A DNA stretch of 33,444 bases from the NCBI GenBank assembly GCA_001767695.1, contig MELR01000031.1, forward strand, positions 47,718 to 81,161, read 5' to 3'. The translations under genes were made by a program, and so were the position numbers. Numbering within the stretch: position 1 is the stretch's first letter; each line of letters opens with the position of its first letter. Origin of the DNA: Actinobacteria bacterium RBG_16_68_21 (GTDB lineage: Bacteria > Actinomycetota > Acidimicrobiia > Spongiisociales > UBA11373). Of the stretch, positions 2 to 9,403 are shown piece after piece. The notes beneath the pieces are model-generated. The model ran no database searches. It was not told the DNA's origin and worked only from the letters and a program-made list of their open reading frames with translations.

Positions 2-670
2 GTCGCCACCGCGCTGCCGGCCGGGGCGACGGTCGTGTCCCGATCCACCGGTACGGCTCTCGGTCCGGGGGACTCCGGAGCGGATGTGGTGGCGCTGCAG
101 AGAGCCTTGCGCGCCAAGGGGTTCTACCGGGGTGCGGCGGATGGTGAGTACGGACCGACGACGGCGTCGGCGGTGGTCGCCTTCCATAAGGTGATCGACC
201 GGGACCGGTCCGAATCGTGGCGAGCGTCGGACTGGCGCCGGCTTGACCGGTTCACGCCCACTTCGCCCACGAGGCGGCGCGGCGAGCCCGCCCGGATCGA
301 GATCGACATCGGCCATCAGGTGCTGTATCTCATCGAAGACAACCGGGTGAAGGCGATTGTCCCAGTATCGACCGGCGGCGGGTACACGTACATCAGCGAC
401 CGAACGGGCGGTCCGGTGGTGGCCCGAACTCCCCGGGGCGATTTCGAGCTGCGCTGGTTCGGCCGCGGGTGGAACTGTGATCCGGTGACCGGATGGTGCG
501 TGTACAACTACTGGTCGTTCTCGACGTACTACGGCATCCACGGCTATCGAACCGTTCCCCCCTACCCGGCTTCGCACGGGTGTGTTCGGTTGAACACCTG
601 GGACGCCGACCGGCTGTCGCGGCACTTCTTTGTGGGGATGCCGGTGCACATCTGGGACACGGCCCCCTAG
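2..670 (+). CDS. L,D-transpeptidase (YkuD) with peptidoglycan-binding domain, 5' partial
   Basis: Secreted enzyme expected to make 3-3 cross-links in peptidoglycan or attach proteins to it. The reading frame is open from base 2, so the gene almost certainly starts left of the window; the GTG at 35 lies just after what looks like the end of a signal peptide (ATALPAGATV). Next comes a PG_binding_1 domain (GDSGADVVALQRALRAKGFY, then DGEYGPTTASAVVAFHK), followed by the YkuD catalytic domain ending in HGYRTVPPYPASHGCVRLN, which contains the catalytic His and the SHGC cysteine. A WNCDPVTGWC segment places two extra cysteines before the active site, as in the paralogue at 7815-8609. A third paralogue lies at 8645-9403. 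The family call is firm; the N-terminus is unknown. Confidence 0.93.
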   Translation, partial: VATALPAGATVVSRSTGTALGPGDSGADVVALQRALRAKGFYRGAADGEYGPTTASAVVAFHKVIDRDRSESWRASDWRRLDRFTPTSPTRRRGEPARIEIDIGHQVLYLIEDNRVKAIVPVSTGGGYTYISDRTGGPVVARTPRGDFELRWFGRGWNCDPVTGWCVYNYWSFSTYYGIHGYRTVPPYPASHGCVRLNTWDADRLSRHFFVGMPVHIWDTAP

Positions 671-1613: not shown

Positions 1614-3086
1614 TCAGCCGGTGACGGTCACGGTGCCTCGCATCCACGGATGCGGTATGCAGTAGTACGGGTACGTGCCCGGTTCGGTGAACGTGAACGT
1701 GAACGTCTCACCCTGGTCGAGGAATCCCGAGTCGAACCGTCCGTCGGCGGTGCCCGCCGACCCGTCCGACACACCTGAAGTGACCGTGTGGGCGATGGCG
1801 TCCATGTTGGTCCAGCGCACCGTCGTCCCGGCAGGGACGGTCAGGTCGAGTGGCTCGTAGGCGTGGTCGGCGTTCGCCGGGTCGAAGGCGCCGTCCGGGA
1901 TTGCGACCTCGGCGCCGACCTCGCCGGCGATCGTCGTTGTCGTGGGGGTCCCGCCGCCCGATGCCGTGGCCGGCTGGACCACCCCGTAGAGCTCGGGTTG
2001 CGGATCGCCCTCGACCACGATCGTCCCCAGGGCGCCCTTGTAGAAGGTCCGCACCAGCGCATGGTCGACGAGGATGATCGTCGAGGGCACCAGACCGTCG
2101 AGTTCCACCACCGTTCCGCCGCCGGCGACCACCAGCGTCGACTGCGACCCGCGGATCGCTCTGTTGGCCGCGTGGGTGGCCGCTTCCGGGTACACCAGGT
2201 CCCAGTGCGACCCGATGGGGTGGAAGTTGGAATCGAGGTTGAGTCCCTGATTGACCATGTAGATCCGGGCGCGCTCTCCCACCGCCATGGTCAGGGTGTT
2301 GTCTCCCTTGAGGGCATCCGTCCTCCCGTTGAAGGTCACGTAGCGGGGCTCCTCCAGGCGGAGGGCCTCGGCATCGAAGGGAGCGATCCCCGAGGCATCG
2401 GGCTCCCCGACATACCACTCCGATTGCATGACCGCCCACTCGTGATCGACGACAGGGAGCGGTTCCTCGGGGTCGACGATGAACATCCCATACATCCCGC
2501 GGGCGATGTGGACCGGCACGTCGCCGTAGGCGCAGTGATACATGAACGCCCCCGGGTAGAGCAGCCGGATCTCGATCGTGGCCGTCTCGCCGGGGTTGAC
2601 GGTGAGATCCTTGGCCCCGCCGCCCTGGCCGGTCACGGCGTGGAAATCGATGTTGTGCGGATGCGTATTCCCCGGGAGGTTGGTGAGGGTGATGAAGACC
2701 ATGTCGCCGACCCGGCCGCGGAGCACCGGACCCGGGGACCCGCAGGTCACCGCCTCGTCACCGGCGATTCGGTATCCCCACATGTCCGTCGAGACCCCTG
2801 ATGCCGGGTCGAGGGGGCAGACTCCTTCGACGATCTCCAGGCTCACCTGATACGACCGTTGCTCGCTCCTGGTGATCGGCGGCGGCACCGCCGGGGCGTA
2901 GGACACGTGGACCTCGTCTGCGGGGGCGGCCGTCAGGCTTGCCTTCGGAGTCAGCTCGGGTCGTACGCTCTCATCGACCGGGAAGGCCGACGCCTCGTCC
3001 CCGGCCACGATCACGAACGAGGCGGCGATCATCGCCGCCCCCACCGCCAGCGCGGCCCACGGCAGAACAGCTTTCCAGGTTCTCAT
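1614..3086 (-). CDS. nirK: Copper-containing nitrite reductase with C-terminal fused cupredoxin domain
   Basis: Reduces nitrite to nitric oxide in denitrification, outside the membrane. 490 aa, starting with an N-terminal hydrophobic segment (7-28) that acts as signal or anchor. All copper and catalytic residues of NirK can be placed: HNIDFH gives type-1 His144, catalytic Asp147 and type-2 His149; YHC gives type-2 His184 and type-1 Cys185; His193 and Met198 complete type 1; IGSH gives catalytic His294; VDHAL gives type-2 His342. After a Thr-rich linker (381-385) a separate cupredoxin follows with His433, Cys476, His479 and Met482, a complete second type-1 site that could pass electrons to the enzyme. 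The start is the ATG at 3086: it has AAGGAGAGGA at 3091-3100 and overlaps the regulator stop as ATGA. A longer reading to 3257 only runs inside the regulator gene. Confidence 0.92.
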   Translation of the reverse strand: MRTWKAVLPWAALAVGAAMIAASFVIVAGDEASAFPVDESVRPELTPKASLTAAPADEVHVSYAPAVPPPITRSEQRSYQVSLEIVEGVCPLDPASGVSTDMWGYRIAGDEAVTCGSPGPVLRGRVGDMVFITLTNLPGNTHPHNIDFHAVTGQGGGAKDLTVNPGETATIEIRLLYPGAFMYHCAYGDVPVHIARGMYGMFIVDPEEPLPVVDHEWAVMQSEWYVGEPDASGIAPFDAEALRLEEPRYVTFNGRTDALKGDNTLTMAVGERARIYMVNQGLNLDSNFHPIGSHWDLVYPEAATHAANRAIRGSQSTLVVAGGGTVVELDGLVPSTIILVDHALVRTFYKGALGTIVVEGDPQPELYGVVQPATASGGGTPTTTTIAGEVGAEVAIPDGAFDPANADHAYEPLDLTVPAGTTVRWTNMDAIAHTVTSGVSDGSAGTADGRFDSGFLDQGETFTFTFTEPGTYPYYCIPHPWMRGTVTVTG

Positions 3087-3529
3087 CGATTCCTCTCCTT
3101 GACCGAACTTGCTGTCATCTTCCTGCTTCTCTTCTTGGGAACTGGCGACACCGGCTCGTCGGCGAGGCGCCGGAGCAGGGCGTCCCTGCCCGCCGACCAG
3201 GCGTCGTGCAGCGAGCACCGTGCATCGGAAGCGCACGGCCCGGCCCGGAGCACGCACACGCCGTTGTCCGTCGGTCCCTCGATCAGCTCGACGAGTTCGA
3301 GGATCGACCGGCGGGACGGCTCGATCGTCAGTCGGTAGCCGCCCCGGGGCCCCGGCTCACTGGCGATCCATCCGGCTTTCACCAGCGGCGTGAGGACCTG
3401 TGGAATGAACTGGGCGGTCGACTCGAGCCGGGCGGCGATTTCCGCCGCCCGGAGCGTCGCGGCTTCCCGATGGAGCAGCCGTACCGCCCGCAGGGCGATG
3501 TCGCTGCGGCGCATGATCTCCAATCGCAT
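3083..3529 (-). CDS. nsrR: Rrf2-family Fe-S regulator, NsrR-like
   Basis: 148 aa winged-helix transcription factor. N-terminal helix-turn-helix (roughly 7-66, including AEIAARLESTAQFIPQVL and GPRGGYRL), then the dimer helix and a three-cysteine cluster at Cys92, Cys99 and Cys105. This spacing is like the [4Fe-4S] ligands of NsrR, the nitric-oxide-sensing Rrf2 branch. It is first in the transcript with nirK, and its stop overlaps the nirK ATG (ATGA), so regulator and NO-producing enzyme are translationally coupled. A perfect 10-bp-arm palindrome directly upstream (3531-3555) fits an autoregulatory operator. Start chosen at 3529; an ATG at 3514 is the alternative. A basic tail (KKRSRK) follows the cluster. 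Other Fe-S Rrf2 members such as IscR or RsrR are possible, but the nirK context favours NO sensing. Confidence 0.85.
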   Translation of the reverse strand: MRLEIMRRSDIALRAVRLLHREAATLRAAEIAARLESTAQFIPQVLTPLVKAGWIASEPGPRGGYRLTIEPSRRSILELVELIEGPTDNGVCVLRAGPCASDARCSLHDAWSAGRDALLRRLADEPVSPVPKKRSRKMTASSVKERNR

Positions 3530-3530
3530 A

Positions 3531-3555
3531 GTCCATGAGTCTAGAACTCATGGAC
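3531..3555 (-). promoter_or_regulatory. Palindromic operator overlapping the nsrR-nirK promoter
   Basis: Arms GTCCATGAGT (3531-3540) and ACTCATGGAC (3546-3555) are perfect inverted repeats separated by 5 bases. On the minus strand a TAGACT -10 box (3538-3543) lies inside it, 8 nt before the regulator ATG, and TTGGTG (3563-3568) may serve as a rather distant -35. A repressor bound here would cover the -10 and transcription start. The palindrome is seen directly; binding by the adjacent Rrf2 protein is inferred. Confidence 0.72.
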
Positions 3556-3582
3556 TGGTCCGCACCAATCACCTCAGAGGGT

Positions 3583-4587
3583 TCAGGCCGAGCAATCCCC
3601 GGAGCCGATCGAGAATCGGTCGATCACCCCGGACCCGACCGTGACGAATTCCCCGACCACGGCCCGATCGCAGGCCGTCAGGCGCAGCGCCCCGGTGTCG
3701 CGGTCGCCGAAGAAGAAGACACTGTGCGGATCGGGGAGATTGCCGGAGAGCGGCACGTTGGTTCTCCCGATTCCTACGGTCGCGTAGGTGATCCCATCCA
3801 CCGCGAAACGCTCGTAGTTGTGGTTGTGTCCGTTCAGCACTAGGTCGGCCCCCCACTCGGCGAAGGGCCAGCGCAGCGCTGCCTCGCCGCGGTGATGGGC
3901 AGATCCGTACGGGGCGTGGTGGAACACCACCACCTGCCACGGCTCCGGGGAAGCCGCCAGGCCGGCCTGCAGCCATGACGCCTGAACCGAGGCCACTCCG
4001 ATGCCGTCCGGTTCGAGTCCGTCGCTGTCGACGATGAACCAGTGAACCGGGCCGAGGACCACGTCGTAGTAGCGCTCATTCCCCGAGGACGACACATACC
4101 CGTCGCCGGGAAGGCTGAAGAATGCCTCGTAGTCGGCGAGGCCGGCGTCGGTGTAATCGTGATTGCCCAGCGCCGGGAAGAACCGATTCACGTCGGCACC
4201 CGGGCCGTAGTCCCCCTCATAGGAGCCGATGAAGTCGGCGAAGAACCTTCCCACCGCCGCGTCGTATCCGATCGACCCGTAGGCGTTGTCACCGACGGTC
4301 ACCACGTAGTCGGGTGCCCAATCCTGGATCATCCCCGCGGTCGCTGCTTCCTCCGGGCCACCGTCGCCGTAGTCGCCGATCACCGCGAAGATCGTCGGCG
4401 CTTTAGCCGCGGTGGTCATCGGGGATGCTGTCGTGGAGGTCGCGGTGGGGACCGACGTCGCAGTCGTCGTCGTGGCGCCGGTGGTCGATGCCACCGTGGG
4501 GGGCGATACCGCGGTGCCCGCGGAGCACGCCGACGCGGCGATCACCCAGAGGGTGACCAGCCACGGTCGTCGGTCGGTTACAGCCAT
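3583..4587 (-). CDS. Secreted purple-acid-phosphatase-like metallophosphoesterase lipoprotein
   Basis: 334 aa phosphoesterase, probably membrane-anchored outside the cell. Lipoprotein signal ends in IAASAC with Cys21, followed by a Thr/Ser-rich linker to about residue 60. Calcineurin-fold dinuclear-metal motifs are in order: GDYGD (71-75), GDN (99-101), GNHD (141-144), FHH (222-224) and GHNHNYER (253-260). The Tyr inside the first motif and the overall layout resemble purple or tartrate-resistant acid phosphatases. The substrate cannot be told. The start is the ATG at 4587, preceded by GATAAT exactly 6 nt upstream, which indicates a leaderless transcript. A reading extended to 4692 would put residues before a clean lipoprotein signal and is rejected. 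Confidence 0.88.
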   Translation of the reverse strand: MAVTDRRPWLVTLWVIAASACSAGTAVSPPTVASTTGATTTTATSVPTATSTTASPMTTAAKAPTIFAVIGDYGDGGPEEAATAGMIQDWAPDYVVTVGDNAYGSIGYDAAVGRFFADFIGSYEGDYGPGADVNRFFPALGNHDYTDAGLADYEAFFSLPGDGYVSSSGNERYYDVVLGPVHWFIVDSDGLEPDGIGVASVQASWLQAGLAASPEPWQVVVFHHAPYGSAHHRGEAALRWPFAEWGADLVLNGHNHNYERFAVDGITYATVGIGRTNVPLSGNLPDPHSVFFFGDRDTGALRLTACDRAVVGEFVTVGSGVIDRFSIGSGDCSA

Positions 4588-4593
4588 CGAACC

Positions 4594-4599
4594 ATTATC
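4594..4599 (-). promoter_or_regulatory. -10 box for leaderless phosphoesterase transcript
   Basis: GATAAT on the minus strand followed by exactly 6 nt and the ATG at 4587, so transcription would start at or next to the start codon. No convincing -35 is visible. Confidence 0.55.
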
Positions 4600-4645
4600 C
4601 AACGGATCGGCATCTACGGCCCCTGCAGAGGACGGTCGCGCCCGA

Positions 4646-4651
4646 TACTCT
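4646..4651 (+). promoter_or_regulatory. -10 box for the Rieske gene
   Basis: TACTCT would give a transcript starting near 4658 with a leader of about 19 nt. The leader contains GGGAG (4667-4671), 5 nt before the TTG start at 4677. It is divergent from the phosphoesterase promoter at 4594-4599. Confidence 0.45.
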
Positions 4652-4676
4652 GCGGCAATCCGATCCGGGAGCCCAC

Positions 4677-5042
4677 TTGGCATACGAAACACCCGCCGGG
4701 GATGCCGCCGATCTGTCTCCGGGAATGGTGACGGGGGCGGGCCGCTGGGCCGTCGGCGATGCCGACGGCAGCCGGTTCGCCGTCACGCGACGTTGTCGCC
4801 ACCTCCTGGCCGATCTCGCCCACGGCTCGATCGACTCGGCGAACTGCCTGGTGTGCCCGTGGCACGGGGCTCGCTATGAGACCGACACGGGTCGCATGGC
4901 GTCGGGACCGCAGGGTTTCTACGGTCGAATCCCCGGTCTTGCCGATGCCCTCAAGGCCCTCACCAGGGTGCTACCCCTGGGCCGCGGGGAGGTGGTCGAG
5001 CGGGCGGGGAGGCTCTTCGTCCGGCGCGCCGGCACCGAGTGA
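4677..5042 (+). CDS. Small Rieske [2Fe-2S] protein
   Basis: 121 aa single-domain Rieske protein. The cluster ligands are Cys40 and His42 (CRH) and Cys60 and His63 (CPWH), followed by the usual GARYETDTGR and GPQG segments. It has no signal peptide or membrane segment, so it is probably a soluble ferredoxin-like electron carrier or a subunit of an oxygenase; no oxygenase lies nearby. The start is a TTG with GGGAG five bases upstream; no ATG or GTG lies ahead of the conserved domain in a better position. The divergent phosphoesterase promoter leaves only about 90 bases between the two genes. Confidence 0.85.
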   Translation: MAYETPAGDAADLSPGMVTGAGRWAVGDADGSRFAVTRRCRHLLADLAHGSIDSANCLVCPWHGARYETDTGRMASGPQGFYGRIPGLADALKALTRVLPLGRGEVVERAGRLFVRRAGTE

Positions 5043-5073
5043 GCGACCGAGCCGGCGAGGGCGGCCGCCTGCC

Positions 5074-5079
5074 TAACGT
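5074..5079 (+). promoter_or_regulatory. -10 box for leaderless EamA gene
   Basis: TAACGT followed by exactly 6 nt and the GTG start at 5086, so the mRNA is expected to begin at the start codon. There is no Shine-Dalgarno sequence upstream of this GTG. Confidence 0.55.
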
Positions 5080-5085
5080 GCGGCG

Positions 5086-5985
5086 GTGCGCCGCGTCTGG
5101 ATCGCCCTGGTCATCGCCTCGCTCGGCTGGGGCACCGCCGGCGTAGCCACCCGGGGGGCACTCGACGCCGGGCTCCAGCCGTTCGCCATCGCCACCCTGC
5201 GGGCTGCCATCGCCGCCGTCGCAGTGATCGGCTTCCTCGTGGTGCGCCGAACGGCGTTCCCCAGGGGGGTGGCGCTGCGCGTCGGGCTGGTCATGGGAGT
5301 GACCAACTTGGCCGTTCCCTATCTCACCGCCAACGTGGCCTTGCAGCATGCCTCTGCGGGCTTCGTCGGCCTGACCACCGCGCTGATCCCCCTCATCACC
5401 GCGGTGATCGCCCACTTCGTGCTCGTCGGTGAGCGATTGTCCGTATTCCGGTTGGTGGGCCTGGTGATCGGCTTCCTCGGGGTCGCCCTCCTCTTGTCCT
5501 CGGGGGACTCCGGTCTCGCCGAGGGTGGCCAGCCGGTGCTCGCCGGGGTGCTTTCGTTGGTGGGCGTGGTGTCGATCGCAGTCGGTGGCATCTATGCCAA
5601 GCGCCATGCTGGTGGGTACGACCCGTTCGAGGTGACCGGCGTCCATTTCGTCTCCGGCACCATCATCATGGCGGTCGCCGCGTTCTTCGCCGAAGGTCTG
5701 CCGGCCGGTATCGGGGGTGGGTCATGGGCGCTGCTGATCTACATGGGTCTGATCAGCACGTTCCTCCCGTTCACGTTGTATTACTGGATGCTGCGCCGGG
5801 TGTCCGCGACGTTCACCTCGATGGCCGGGTACCTCGTGCCTCCGATCGCAGTGTGCGCCGGAGTCGTGTTCCTCTCGGAGCGTCTCGAATCGGGAATCGT
5901 GTTGGCCGGGCTGCTGATCCTCGCCGGCGTCATCATCGGCGACCGATCCGAGCGCCGCGCCGTGTCCCCGGTTCCACTCGCCTAG
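5086..5985 (+). CDS. EamA/DMT-superfamily transporter
   Basis: 299 aa inner-membrane protein with about ten hydrophobic segments arranged as two EamA repeats (roughly 1-135 and 145-287), typical length for the drug/metabolite transporter superfamily. The first repeat contains the usual SLGWGTAGVATRGAL and RAAIAAVAVIGF stretches, and each repeat ends in a helix preceded by an ER or E-rich loop (LVGERLS, LSERLE). Substrates in this family are diverse (metabolites, amino acids, nucleosides) and nothing here identifies one. GTG start, leaderless promoter TAACGT 6 nt upstream. It converges with the cell-wall-binding lipoprotein gene, with only 22 bases between the two stops and no clear terminator. 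Confidence 0.88.
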   Translation: MRRVWIALVIASLGWGTAGVATRGALDAGLQPFAIATLRAAIAAVAVIGFLVVRRTAFPRGVALRVGLVMGVTNLAVPYLTANVALQHASAGFVGLTTALIPLITAVIAHFVLVGERLSVFRLVGLVIGFLGVALLLSSGDSGLAEGGQPVLAGVLSLVGVVSIAVGGIYAKRHAGGYDPFEVTGVHFVSGTIIMAVAAFFAEGLPAGIGGGSWALLIYMGLISTFLPFTLYYWMLRRVSATFTSMAGYLVPPIAVCAGVVFLSERLESGIVLAGLLILAGVIIGDRSERRAVSPVPLA

Positions 5986-6007
5986 GTGTGACAACCAAGG
6001 CGATGCC

Positions 6008-7771
6008 CTACTGGTAGGAGACGTAGACGACGGTCGGTATCAGGTCGAGCACCTCGCGGGGCGTGATCGGCCCCGGGAAGTCCTCGTCGTAGAAGTTCTT
6101 CCAGCCGAAGCGCCACCCTGCCGTCTGCCAGCCTTCGGTGATCACGGCCCAAGTCTTGTACTTGTCCGAGATCGCCCCCTGCCCGTCCATTTGAATGACC
6201 ACGGCCAGCTCGGTGGGTGTTGCGATCTGGTCGCGGTCCTCCAGCATCGAGCTCCGGAACTGGTGGAGGAGGAGCATCTTCTGCGGGAGGTGGTTGTCCC
6301 GGACCAGCGTGGCGAGCCAGTCCACCACCGAGTTGACCTCTTCGGCGGAGACGTGGCCGATCTGGCGGAGGTGAACCTGGTCGGGCTCGAGGCGCCACTC
6401 CGGATCGAGGGCGAGGCCGACATTGGGCAAGAGGAGGAGCTCCTCGTAGAGCTTCGCTTGAGTTAGGAAGTCGCTCCGTCCCGGCTGCAGGTCGAGCAGG
6501 ACATAGATCCCTTCCCGGGCGGCACGATCGACCCATGGGCGGAGGAAGTCGACTGTCATCTCATTGGAGTAGTTGTCGTCGAGGCCGGCATCGGCGGCGG
6601 CAACCGTGGCGATGATCTCGAACGTCGGCAGCACCGTGAGCCCGTCGGCGTTGTAGCCGGCGGACAGCTGACGGACCCGGTCGACTGAGCCATCGATGTC
6701 CTGCTCGCCGAGCACGCCCAGATCGACCGTCTGCGGATTGCCGTACAACGCCACCAGCCGCCGTCCGGGGAACATCAGGTAGCCGCCTCCCGGGATCTCG
6801 TCGTCCTGGAGGATCACCGGCAGCTGCCAGGTCGCATCGGGGGTCACGCCGATCAGCTGCACCTGCTTGGCCCCTCCCGGCACCAGTTGCAGGGTGTGGG
6901 CGACCTCGACGTTGGCCCGCAGATCCGAGCCGTCGACCACCGCCATGAGACCGCCGGTGGTGACGGCACTAACCGCGGCGGCGATGGCCAGCGAGGTCTG
7001 ACCGGCATCGACCAGCCACACCGCACCGGTGGAACCCACCCCGGCGTAGAGCTCGGGGATGGCGACCGGGTCGGCAGGAATCGTCGTGCTGGTGGTGGCG
7101 GGGGTGTCGCTTCCCGGCGAGGTCGTCGTGGTCGTCGTGGCGGGCACGATCCCCGAACCCGCGGCGAGGCCGGCGATGGCGGCGACGACCGTGGCAATGC
7201 CGGGTGCCGGGGGAAGCACGATCTCGGTGGTGGCACCGACGCGGTCGTTGACCTCGGCGGCGATTTCTGGCGGAGTGCCCGTGAGCGTCTCGATGTCGGA
7301 GAAGTCGGGGACCTGCACCGTGTCGGTCCCGTGGCCCACCAGCCAAACCGTTTTCGGGGAGAGCCGGTCGATTTCGTATGCGAGCAGGCTCGAACCGGTT
7401 GCCGCGGCGAACAAGAGGGGCCCGTCGAGGTGAGCGGCGAGTCTGCCGGCGATGGCGACCAGATCCAGATCGGAGGCGGAGACGACGATCACGTCGTGGG
7501 CGCACACGAACGCGTTCTGCGAGATGCTCACCGATGCCGCCTCGATGTTGGCGCCGGTGACCCGCTCCGTGTCGGGGCTCCCGGCCCGTGCCGTGGGGAC
7601 GACGGGGATCGAGGTCCGGCACGGTCGGAGGTCCTCGGTGGAGGGCGGCGTCGAGGACCCGTCTGCGTTCGTTGCGGTCGGGCCGGATGTCGTCCCCCCG
7701 CTCCCCCCGAAGCAGGCCGCGGCGACGAGGGAGAACGCGGCAATGGTCGCGGTGATCGGGAAGCGGCGCAG
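6008..7771 (-). CDS. Cell-wall-binding-repeat (CWB2-like) lipoprotein with TIM-barrel-like C-terminus; probable CTG start
   Basis: 587 aa from the proposed CTG at 7771. That codon has GGAGG 5 nt upstream and opens a textbook lipoprotein signal ending VAAAC at Cys20. The first ATG/GTG/TTG in frame is the GTG at 7531, which would remove the signal and start inside a domain. Residues about 66-135 (TERVTGANIEAASVSISQNAF, then DVIVVSASD, HLDGPLLFAA, LSPKTVWLVG) follow the pattern of cell wall binding repeat 2 (PF04122), though divergent. A Thr/Ser linker precedes a second such module (ELYAGVG..AVWLVDAG). The last about 290 residues (ALYGNPQTVDLGVLGEQD onward) alternate strands and helices with acidic motifs (DLQPGRSDF, ALDPEW, VVIQMDGQG), resembling a glycoside-hydrolase-like barrel; I cannot name the family. 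Last gene of the 9403-6008 envelope set. Confidence 0.8.
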   Translation of the reverse strand: MRRFPITATIAAFSLVAAACFGGSGGTTSGPTATNADGSSTPPSTEDLRPCRTSIPVVPTARAGSPDTERVTGANIEAASVSISQNAFVCAHDVIVVSASDLDLVAIAGRLAAHLDGPLLFAAATGSSLLAYEIDRLSPKTVWLVGHGTDTVQVPDFSDIETLTGTPPEIAAEVNDRVGATTEIVLPPAPGIATVVAAIAGLAAGSGIVPATTTTTTSPGSDTPATTSTTIPADPVAIPELYAGVGSTGAVWLVDAGQTSLAIAAAVSAVTTGGLMAVVDGSDLRANVEVAHTLQLVPGGAKQVQLIGVTPDATWQLPVILQDDEIPGGGYLMFPGRRLVALYGNPQTVDLGVLGEQDIDGSVDRVRQLSAGYNADGLTVLPTFEIIATVAAADAGLDDNYSNEMTVDFLRPWVDRAAREGIYVLLDLQPGRSDFLTQAKLYEELLLLPNVGLALDPEWRLEPDQVHLRQIGHVSAEEVNSVVDWLATLVRDNHLPQKMLLLHQFRSSMLEDRDQIATPTELAVVIQMDGQGAISDKYKTWAVITEGWQTAGWRFGWKNFYDEDFPGPITPREVLDLIPTVVYVSYQ

Positions 7772-7814: not shown

Positions 7815-8609
7815 TCAGTCGGTCAGGTGAGCCGGTTGGTGAGGCGGAGCGATCGTCGGCGGCTCGTCCCAGACGTGGACCGGCATTCCGACGAAGAGCT
7901 CCGAGTCGAGCCAGTCGGAGTCCCACAGGTTCACCCGCGTGCAACCGTGTGATGCCGGATAGCTGGGGACCTCGCGATAGCCGTGGATGCCGTAGAACGG
8001 GGTAAACGCCCAGTAGTTGTAGACGCACCAAGTCGTCACCGGATCGCAGTTCCACCCCCACTGTCGCCACATCAGGTGGAAGTCGCCGTGGGGGGTGCGG
8101 GCGGAGACCGTCTGGCCGGACCGCACGCTGTGGTACGTGTAGTCGCCGGCGGTCGACACGGGAAGGATGCCGGTCACCTCGCCCTCACGGACGACGAACA
8201 TCAGCTGTCTGGTTACGTCGATCTCGACGCGATCCGGCTCGTACCAGCGGTCGGGGATGCCCGGGTCGCTCGGAAGCGAGTCGAGCCGAATCCAATCGAG
8301 AGCGTTGAAAGTCGTGGTTCGGGGGAGTCCCAGGTACTTGTGGAAGGCCAGCACCGCGGTTTCCGTCGGTACGTCGAAGGCTCCCGTCGCCTCCGATCGG
8401 TAGAAGCCGGCCGAGGTGAGGGCCTCCTGGAGCCGGGTGACGTCCGGGCCGGCGACGCCCGGTGCCAGCCTCACCAGGCGGTCGAGCGAGCCGACGCCGA
8501 GCAATTGGTACGGCTCCTCGGCCCCGGCGCCGGGCACGACCAAAGCCGTGATACCGAGCATCACGGCGAATGCGGCGAGGCGGCGACGATGTAGCAAGGG
8601 CATGAGCAT
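7815..8609 (-). CDS. L,D-transpeptidase (YkuD) with peptidoglycan-binding domain
   Basis: 264 aa secreted enzyme for 3-3 peptidoglycan cross-linking. Signal peptide 1-31 ending VPGAGA; PG_binding_1 domain (PGVAGPDVTRLQEALTSAGFY, then TETAVLAFHKYLGL); YkuD domain from EPDRVEIDVTRQLMFVV to the catalytic HGYREVPSYPASHGCTRVN. An extra cysteine pair (WNCDPVTTWC) precedes the active site, as in the gene at 2-670. The start is the ATG at 8609 or 8603 (MLMPLL); the extension to 8912 only overlaps the upstream paralogue. It sits 35 bases after that paralogue and 43 bases before the cell-wall-binding lipoprotein, suggesting an operon. Confidence 0.93.
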   Translation of the reverse strand: MLMPLLHRRRLAAFAVMLGITALVVPGAGAEEPYQLLGVGSLDRLVRLAPGVAGPDVTRLQEALTSAGFYRSEATGAFDVPTETAVLAFHKYLGLPRTTTFNALDWIRLDSLPSDPGIPDRWYEPDRVEIDVTRQLMFVVREGEVTGILPVSTAGDYTYHSVRSGQTVSARTPHGDFHLMWRQWGWNCDPVTTWCVYNYWAFTPFYGIHGYREVPSYPASHGCTRVNLWDSDWLDSELFVGMPVHVWDEPPTIAPPHQPAHLTD

Positions 8610-8644
8610 AGATCGGACGCCCGCAGAGTCGGGTTTCGCGTTTT

Positions 8645-9403
8645 CTAGTGGCGCGGCTGAGGAGCGGGGGTTGGCTCCGGCGGGACGTCCCACACGTGCA
8701 TCGGCATGCCCACGAAGAGCAGGGGTTCGACCCAGCGCGAGTCCCGGGTCGTGATCCGCACACACCCGTGGGAGACCGGACGGTTGGGCACGTCGGGGTA
8801 CCCGTGGATCCCGTAGTACGGGGTGAACGCCCAGTACTTGTACACGCACGTGGGCAGGCAGCTCCAGCCGAGTTGGTGCCAGTCGAGGGTGAAGTCGCCG
8901 CGGGGGGTCCATGCCAGCTTGTCCCGACGGAATAGCGGGCTGGGGTAGACGTACCCACCGCCGCTGGAGATGGGGAGGATGCCCGCCACCTCGAAGTTGC
9001 GAACCACGAACAGCAGCTGCCTGCCGATGTCGACCTCGACGCGGTCGGGTTCATCCCTCCACATGGGGATCCCGGGGTCGCTGGGCATGAAGTCGAGCCG
9101 AATCCAATCCAGGGCGCCGAACTCGTAGGTGGGTTCCAGCCCGAGATACGCGTGGAATGTCCTCACCGCGAACTCGGTCTGCTCGTCGTATCGGCCGGAG
9201 ATCGGGCCGTGGTACATGCCCAGTCCGGCGAGGGTGTACTGCAGCCGGATGACCGCCGGGCCGGTGTCGTCGCGAGACAACGCCACCAGGGTGCCGTAGC
9301 CCTCGACCGGTGCCAATTCGGAGGCGTGCGCCGCCGGGGCGACGCCGGTGAGCCCGGCGACCACAAGGAAGGCGATCGTGAATCGGAGGAGTGGGCGTGT
9401 CAT
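8645..9403 (-). CDS. L,D-transpeptidase (YkuD) with peptidoglycan-binding domain
   Basis: 252 aa paralogue of the two other L,D-transpeptidases here. Signal peptide 1-25 (ends AAHAS), PG_binding_1 domain (DDTGPAVIRLQYTLAGLGMY, then TEFAVRTFHAYLGL), YkuD domain with HGYPDVPNRPVSHGCVRI, catalytic His and Cys intact. The segment before the active site is shortened to SCLPTC, so the cysteine pair found in the paralogues is kept but closer together. First gene of a set with 7815-8609 and 6008-7771. Upstream on the same strand a TATCGT box (9430-9435) and a six-codon leader frame (9400-9420) are visible; the leader's stop overlaps the ATG at 9403. A start further upstream would run into the helicase leader and is unlikely. 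Confidence 0.92.
   Translation of the reverse strand: MTRPLLRFTIAFLVVAGLTGVAPAAHASELAPVEGYGTLVALSRDDTGPAVIRLQYTLAGLGMYHGPISGRYDEQTEFAVRTFHAYLGLEPTYEFGALDWIRLDFMPSDPGIPMWRDEPDRVEVDIGRQLLFVVRNFEVAGILPISSGGGYVYPSPLFRRDKLAWTPRGDFTLDWHQLGWSCLPTCVYKYWAFTPYYGIHGYPDVPNRPVSHGCVRITTRDSRWVEPLLFVGMPMHVWDVPPEPTPAPQPRH

Follow-up and report, generated by a model that had tools for sequence, protein, structure and literature searches.

A predicted self-repressed rrf2–nirK operon with a conserved operator at the regulator start in Acidimicrobiia

Introduction

How is a copper nitrite reductase gene controlled when the gene in front of it encodes a regulator that runs directly into it? The question is raised by a locus of Actinobacteria bacterium RBG_16_68_21, an uncultured member of the Acidimicrobiia, contained in a 33,444-nucleotide stretch of DNA that was analysed as a whole and is called the window here. 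A preliminary description read this locus as a self-contained NO-feedback switch made of an NsrR-like gene, nirK and a perfect operator. At issue are the identity of the regulator, the standing of the operator and the signal that would open it.

Control of nirK by Rrf2 proteins is already known. In Neisseria, NsrR controls nirK and norB. In Nitrosomonas europaea, the Rrf2 repressor NsrR governs nirK, the gene of the copper nitrite reductase, in answer to nitrite and NO (PMC1274295). Rrf2 genes are also known from clade II nos clusters, where they were found enriched beside nosZ in a sediment metagenome; the available part of that report gives no operator, nirK link or subfamily, which are added here for Acidimicrobiia (PMC6264515).

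Results

Layout of the locus and genome context

Three genes follow one another on the minus strand, in the order metallophosphatase, Rrf2-family regulator and nirK, with a gap of 53 bp between the first two (Table 1). The TGA of the regulator (3083–3085) and the ATG of nirK (3084–3086) merge into ATGA, as the preliminary description had it. This overlap recurs in the family genomes G010 and G011 and in several more nirK-linked loci. On either side of the region lies a gene for an L,D-transpeptidase (YkuD) with a peptidoglycan-binding domain (35–670, plus strand; 7815–8912, minus strand).

Table 1 Coordinates of the features at the rrf2–nirK locus in the window
Feature	Position	Strand	Remarks
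Metallophosphatase gene	3583–4692	−	
Rrf2-family regulator, 148 aa	3083–3529	−	C92, C99, C105, H108 and D10; from profiles, residues, tree and AlphaFold2 model
nirK, copper nitrite reductase	1614–3086	−	N-terminal membrane/signal segment; C-terminal plastocyanin-like domain (aa ~406–488)
ATGA, regulator stop/nirK start overlap (predicted translational coupling)	3083–3086	−	From sequence; recurs in relatives
Operator dyad A, AATCGCATAGT-ccatg-AGTCTAGAACT	3522–3548		Ranked first by three matrices built from relatives only
Operator dyad B, perfect 11-5-11 palindrome	3530–3556		Ranked second in the window by the nosZ-linked matrix
TAGACT, TAnnnT-like −10 candidate inside the palindrome	3538–3543	−	Inferred from sequence only

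Judged by its residues, nirK is genuine. Among proteins of solved structure, it comes closest to Neisseria AniA and further copper nitrite reductases (E 1e-71), with which its nitrite reductase part (aa 54–367) aligns. The motifs HNIDFH, HC..H....M, SNFH and VDH line up with AniA (1kbv), and the type 1 and type 2 copper ligands (His, Cys, Met) and the catalytic Asp and His are all in place. These ligand and catalytic motifs are invariant across four aligned sequences; the copper-ligand and catalytic roles of the aligned residues we take to be those of established NirK structures. With 256.9 bits the protein stays under the curated cut-off of TIGR02376 (296.3 bits), which marks it as a divergent member of its family. 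The C-terminal plastocyanin/amicyanin-like domain also occurs in relatives and is possibly a built-in electron donor.

The source genome is a 2.03-Mb assembly in 35 contigs and is 92% complete. A globin-type Hmp, a NorB-like COX1 protein and NosZ were sought in it and none was found. At this completeness, its gene content suggests a partial denitrifier that takes nitrite to NO, with NirK and no detectable NosZ, NorB-like COX1 protein or globin. With none of the three found, and no second operator site in genome-wide pattern scans, a wider NO regulon is not indicated. Besides the nirK-linked regulator, only one further protein of the genome scores above the Rrf2 cut-off.

The regulator combines NsrR-like and IscR-like residues

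The regulator belongs to the Rrf2 superfamily (PF02082, 78.6 bits; cut-off 30). Its AlphaFold2 model has the Rrf2 fold (pLDDT 85) and is nearest, among solved folds, to RsrR; the best profile matches are RsrR and IscR, with close scores. The three-Cys cluster of the preliminary description is present, spaced C92-x6-C99-x5-C105. Among 93 related regulators, C92 is kept in 92, C99 in 85, C105 in all 93 and H108 in 92, and 81 of the 93 have an acid at position 10, which is D10 in the window's protein.

H108, three residues past the third Cys, stands at an IscR ligand position where both NsrR references carry R/K, and Trp111 is IscR-like as well. D10 aligns with Asp8 of Streptomyces NsrR, whereas IscR has Arg there; Asp8 is described as a cluster ligand in the available part of PMC5411485. 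The regulator accordingly has both the three Cys and helix 1 acid of the NsrR ligand set and the Cys3-His of the IscR set. Because H108 is absent from the NsrR references and the acid from IscR, the regulator is, by its residues, neither NsrR nor IscR.

Profile models agree with this placement. The NsrR model NF008240 gave no match to the regulator at E 0.01, while E. coli NsrR scored 292.8 bits in the same library; against the IscR equivalog model the regulator reached 36.1 bits (cut-off 207.55). It also departs from RsrR, which is marked by 11-3-11 sites and has no three-Cys set, in its three conserved Cys and its 11-5-11 site.

A regulator clade associated with denitrification genes

The search for homologues covered 14 genomes at the level of the family and 138 at that of the order, and gave 93 distinct regulators with their neighbourhoods. 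In a tree built on few columns and with only three reference proteins, 81 regulators including the window's form one clade (support 100/100), in which the window's protein branches with nirK-linked copies of G010, G011 and G133 (99/86). The E. coli and Streptomyces NsrRs pair together (100/97) apart from this clade, and the IscR reference branches elsewhere. The NsrR identity proposed in the preliminary description is not borne out by this tree, by the missing match to the NsrR model or by the IscR-like His108.

Within 6 kb, 17 of the 81 clade members have nirK and 17 have nosZ (34 together), and 52 have at least one of nirK, nosZ, nosD, nosL, narK, a cytochrome d1 protein and an oxidase-like gene; these counts come from related, not independent, genomes. 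The remaining 29 loci, several of them on short contigs, have none of the denitrification or respiratory markers tested. Since nirK and nosZ are rare genes, the association of the regulator with denitrification is far beyond chance. The regulator stands beside nirK in three further genomes of the family, from two further genera, with the ATGA overlap in two; nirK genes 69–74% identical to the window's adjoin the same regulator type in G002, G010 and G011. Relatives show the same combination of regulator, nirK and operator as one local unit, and the earlier idea of a local switch is strengthened.

Several other neighbourhoods were observed. At L041 a gene for a NirS-type cytochrome c-d1 protein (4710–6338; PF02239, 276 bits) follows the regulator directly with an ATGA overlap. 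In a sister group, the regulator gene stands divergent from one for a multiheme cytochrome that is similar to hydrazine dehydrogenase/HAO-type proteins (L046, 7623–8930; L049, 2477–3781). A subclade adjoins a conserved zinc-ribbon-like protein (L118, L130, L136–L139, L141, L142), with nosL or cytochrome c genes close by in some loci. Two Chloroflexota nirK genes (L164, L169) are preceded by an Rrf2 gene from a different branch, 36–39% identical to the window's, which suggests repeated recruitment of Rrf2 genes beside nirK. The use of copper by both NirK and NosZ made this metal a candidate signal, but it was rejected, since the regulator type is the same at heme NirS-type and narK modules.

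A conserved operator at the regulator start

Dyad B reads AGTCCATGAGT-CTAGA-ACTCATGGACT, with arms of 11 bp that are 100% complementary, and abuts the regulator ATG (3527–3529) with zero bases in between. The perfect palindrome of the preliminary description is therefore real, with arms one base pair longer than the 10 bp given and no gap of one to two bases before the ATG. Dyad A is shifted by 8 bp and overlaps dyad B; the start codon and codon 2 make up its outer half together with the initial bases of codon 3, and it matches the family pattern with one mismatch.

Chance would give about 3e-4 such palindromes (spacers 0–9) per 60 bp of upstream sequence. The window nevertheless holds three perfect palindromes with 11-bp arms and spacers of 3–7, where shuffled sequence has 0.18 on average, so that palindromy alone is not decisive and conservation is. 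A test matrix was made from seven nosZ-linked regulator sites, none of them from this genome. Over the 33-kb window it gave 26.6 bits at 3522–3548 and 24.6 bits at 3530–3556, with 8.1 bits for the next best site; the dyads lead all other positions of the window by 16 bits. Among nirK-linked relatives, with the window excluded and with L152, whose neighbour is cytochrome d1-like and not nirK, counted in, 13-pair symmetry peaks exactly at −14 relative to the regulator start (6.2 pairs against a background of 3.6). Some start codons and operator centres of relatives were set by rule, and single loci such as L135 are possibly misregistered.

The relatives' consensus is about RWTYnnnnAGT-N5-ACTnnnnRAWY. 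Their sites vary in sequence and keep AGT-N5-ACT and the mirrored arms, as in the nosZ-linked loci L153 (ATTCCTATAGT-cctag-ACTATAGGACT) and L155 (AAATCTCTAGT-tgcca-ACTACAGATTT). This comparative evidence from other genomes makes the predicted operator convincing. Codon 2 ends in A in 15/16 of the regulators whose start is immediately preceded by ACT or ATT, versus 22/64 of the others (Fisher p 2.5e-5, an optimistic value given the relatedness of the sequences). This difference suggests that the operator holds the coding start.

The preliminary description regarded the 5-base spacer as unusual for NsrR. The published NsrR consensus, gATGyAT-N5-ATrCATc (PMC1274295), has the same N5 geometry, and shares with the operator an odd dyad and CAT at +6 to +8; cATGAGT of the operator agrees with the core ATGyAT at 4/6 positions. 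The spacer length does not set the operator apart from NsrR sites.

Genome-wide pattern scans of the source genome found the window site only and no second operator above background, and no hmp or norB gene was found upstream of which the earlier account would have looked for further copies. The site thus occurs once in the genome, yet it is conserved across relatives. The preliminary description would have taken a single site that relatives lack as a refutation, and this is not the case. A single operator, in a genome with just one further regulator that passes the Rrf2 cut-off, points to a local, self-limiting switch.

The palindrome had also been said to cover a −10 box. It does include TAGACT, but this is only TAnnnT-like, and a scan for sigma-70-type promoters found none above threshold, which makes the −10 box a weak candidate. 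A transcript from it would have little or no leader.

An exact stringent DosR/DevR box, GGGACTTNNGNCCCT, lies upstream of the Rrf2 operator in nine relatives, at −50 (L140, L144), −51 (L176), −57 (L111, L146), −80 (L153), −84 (L154) and −96 (L115, L119) relative to the regulator start. The box consensus is that of PMC6448022. A relaxed box occurs in 20/81 loci versus 2.3 in shuffles (maximum 7). In the window itself the best match to a DosR box has 9/14 positions, which is background level.

Discussion

Proposed mechanism

The sequence provides two genes, their overlap and an operator that is conserved in relatives and occurs once in the genome. We lean, by a modest degree of confidence, towards an rrf2–nirK bicistronic operon that is repressed by its own Fe–S regulator on the overlapping dyads and relieved by NO. 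An Rrf2 dimer would bind the two 27-bp dyads (3522–3556 together). We infer that it carries an Fe–S cluster, which would sit on C92, C99 and C105 with H108 and/or D10 as a further ligand. Because the operator spans the putative −10 region as well as the start codon, its occupation by the protein should mean repression: the dimer would cover these elements and the transcription start and shut the promoter. NO, from NirK itself or from neighbours, would nitrosylate the cluster and release the repressor, after which regulator and nirK would be co-transcribed, with nirK translation coupled through ATGA. As the repressor would be remade in step with the enzyme, the unit would close as the signal fades.

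NO is a plausible signal, and the most natural one given the attachment of the regulator to nirK, nosZ and nirS-type genes and the NsrR precedent. Some observations count against parts of this scheme. No promoter consensus was found, and read-through from the metallophosphatase gene, on the same strand 53 bp upstream, could bypass the operator. The regulator's position outside the NsrR branch and its best profile and fold matches, to the redox sensor RsrR and to IscR, are further points against the scheme, as is the third of the clade's loci in which none of the markers tested occurs. Finally, with no NO reductase, globin or NosZ found in the 92%-complete genome, the NO-fed positive loop would have no obvious sink, and resynthesis of the repressor would be its only evident brake.

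Compared with NsrR and nirK of Nitrosomonas, the likeness lies in an Rrf2 regulator paired with a copper nitrite reductase gene. In contrast, the regulator here stands outside the NsrR branch and carries a further conserved His, its gene opens the predicted operon with ATGA coupling, and it has one genomic site.

Other signals and regulators

The most serious rival to NO keeps the same local repressor and operator and replaces the signal by redox state or low oxygen, the oxidized cluster repressing and the reduced one releasing as in RsrR; denitrification genes would then open when oxygen runs out. RsrR of Streptomyces venezuelae regulates itself through inverted repeats, which form two adjacent sites in its promoter, according to the available part of PMC5015018, which describes no denitrification targets. 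The present regulator resembles it in having two predicted sites at its own promoter, and RsrR is its closest fold and joint best profile. The RsrR sites, in the same partial account, are 11-3-11 and one base apart, whereas the two 11-5-11 dyads here have 19 bp in common. The linked nirK, nosZ, narK and oxidase-like modules share low oxygen rather than NO, and the DosR boxes upstream of nine operators point the same way, although these boxes could already supply the oxygen signal. The [2Fe-2S] ligands of RsrR are given as Cys, Glu and His by a work cited in PMC9338935, while three Cys and a His are kept here. We regard a redox or oxygen signal as rather unlikely.

It is improbable that the protein is a canonical NsrR acting as in E. 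coli or Streptomyces. Such an identity would explain the Rrf2 fold, the three Cys, the acid that matches ScNsrR Asp8 and an operator that agrees in part with the NsrR motif and is in register with it; it is opposed by the separate, well-supported branches, by the silent NsrR model, by a His in 92/93 sequences where NsrRs carry R/K and by the failure to find an hmp-type globin gene in the genome.

An IscR- or RirA-like sensor of Fe–S or iron supply, which would silence a respiratory module rich in metal whenever clusters run short, is equally improbable. The neighbourhoods fetched carry nir and nos genes and no isc, suf or iron uptake genes were seen in them, the IscR reference lies on another branch and the acid at position 10 is foreign to IscR, which is to be set against the shared three Cys, His108 and Trp111 and an IscR profile score close to that of RsrR. 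That the palindrome is a chance product or an RNA hairpin that binds no regulator, for which the three perfect palindromes of such arm length in the window might speak, is highly improbable given that its position and sequence class are conserved in independent lineages and that the window sites were retrieved by a matrix trained on other genes' sites in other genomes.

Implications

The open-licence literature that was searched yielded no description of a separate denitrification-linked Rrf2 clade with such a ligand set, such an operator and the start codon inside it. We tentatively put forward the possibility that Acidimicrobiia have an unnamed Rrf2 subfamily, with hybrid Cys3-His-plus-acid ligands, whose members act as private switches of single enzymes under a shared DosR-type activator responding to hypoxia or NO. 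If so, nirK, nirS, nosZ and narK modules would each have their own regulator copy and a related operator, of which the start codon would in some cases be part. This would be a decentralized alternative to the global regulators NnrR, DNR and NsrR. If each step has a private Fe–S repressor, the release of NO and N2O would be set stepwise and not by one master regulator, and with the operator consensus such control may become predictable from sequence in uncultured Actinomycetota of soil and sediment.
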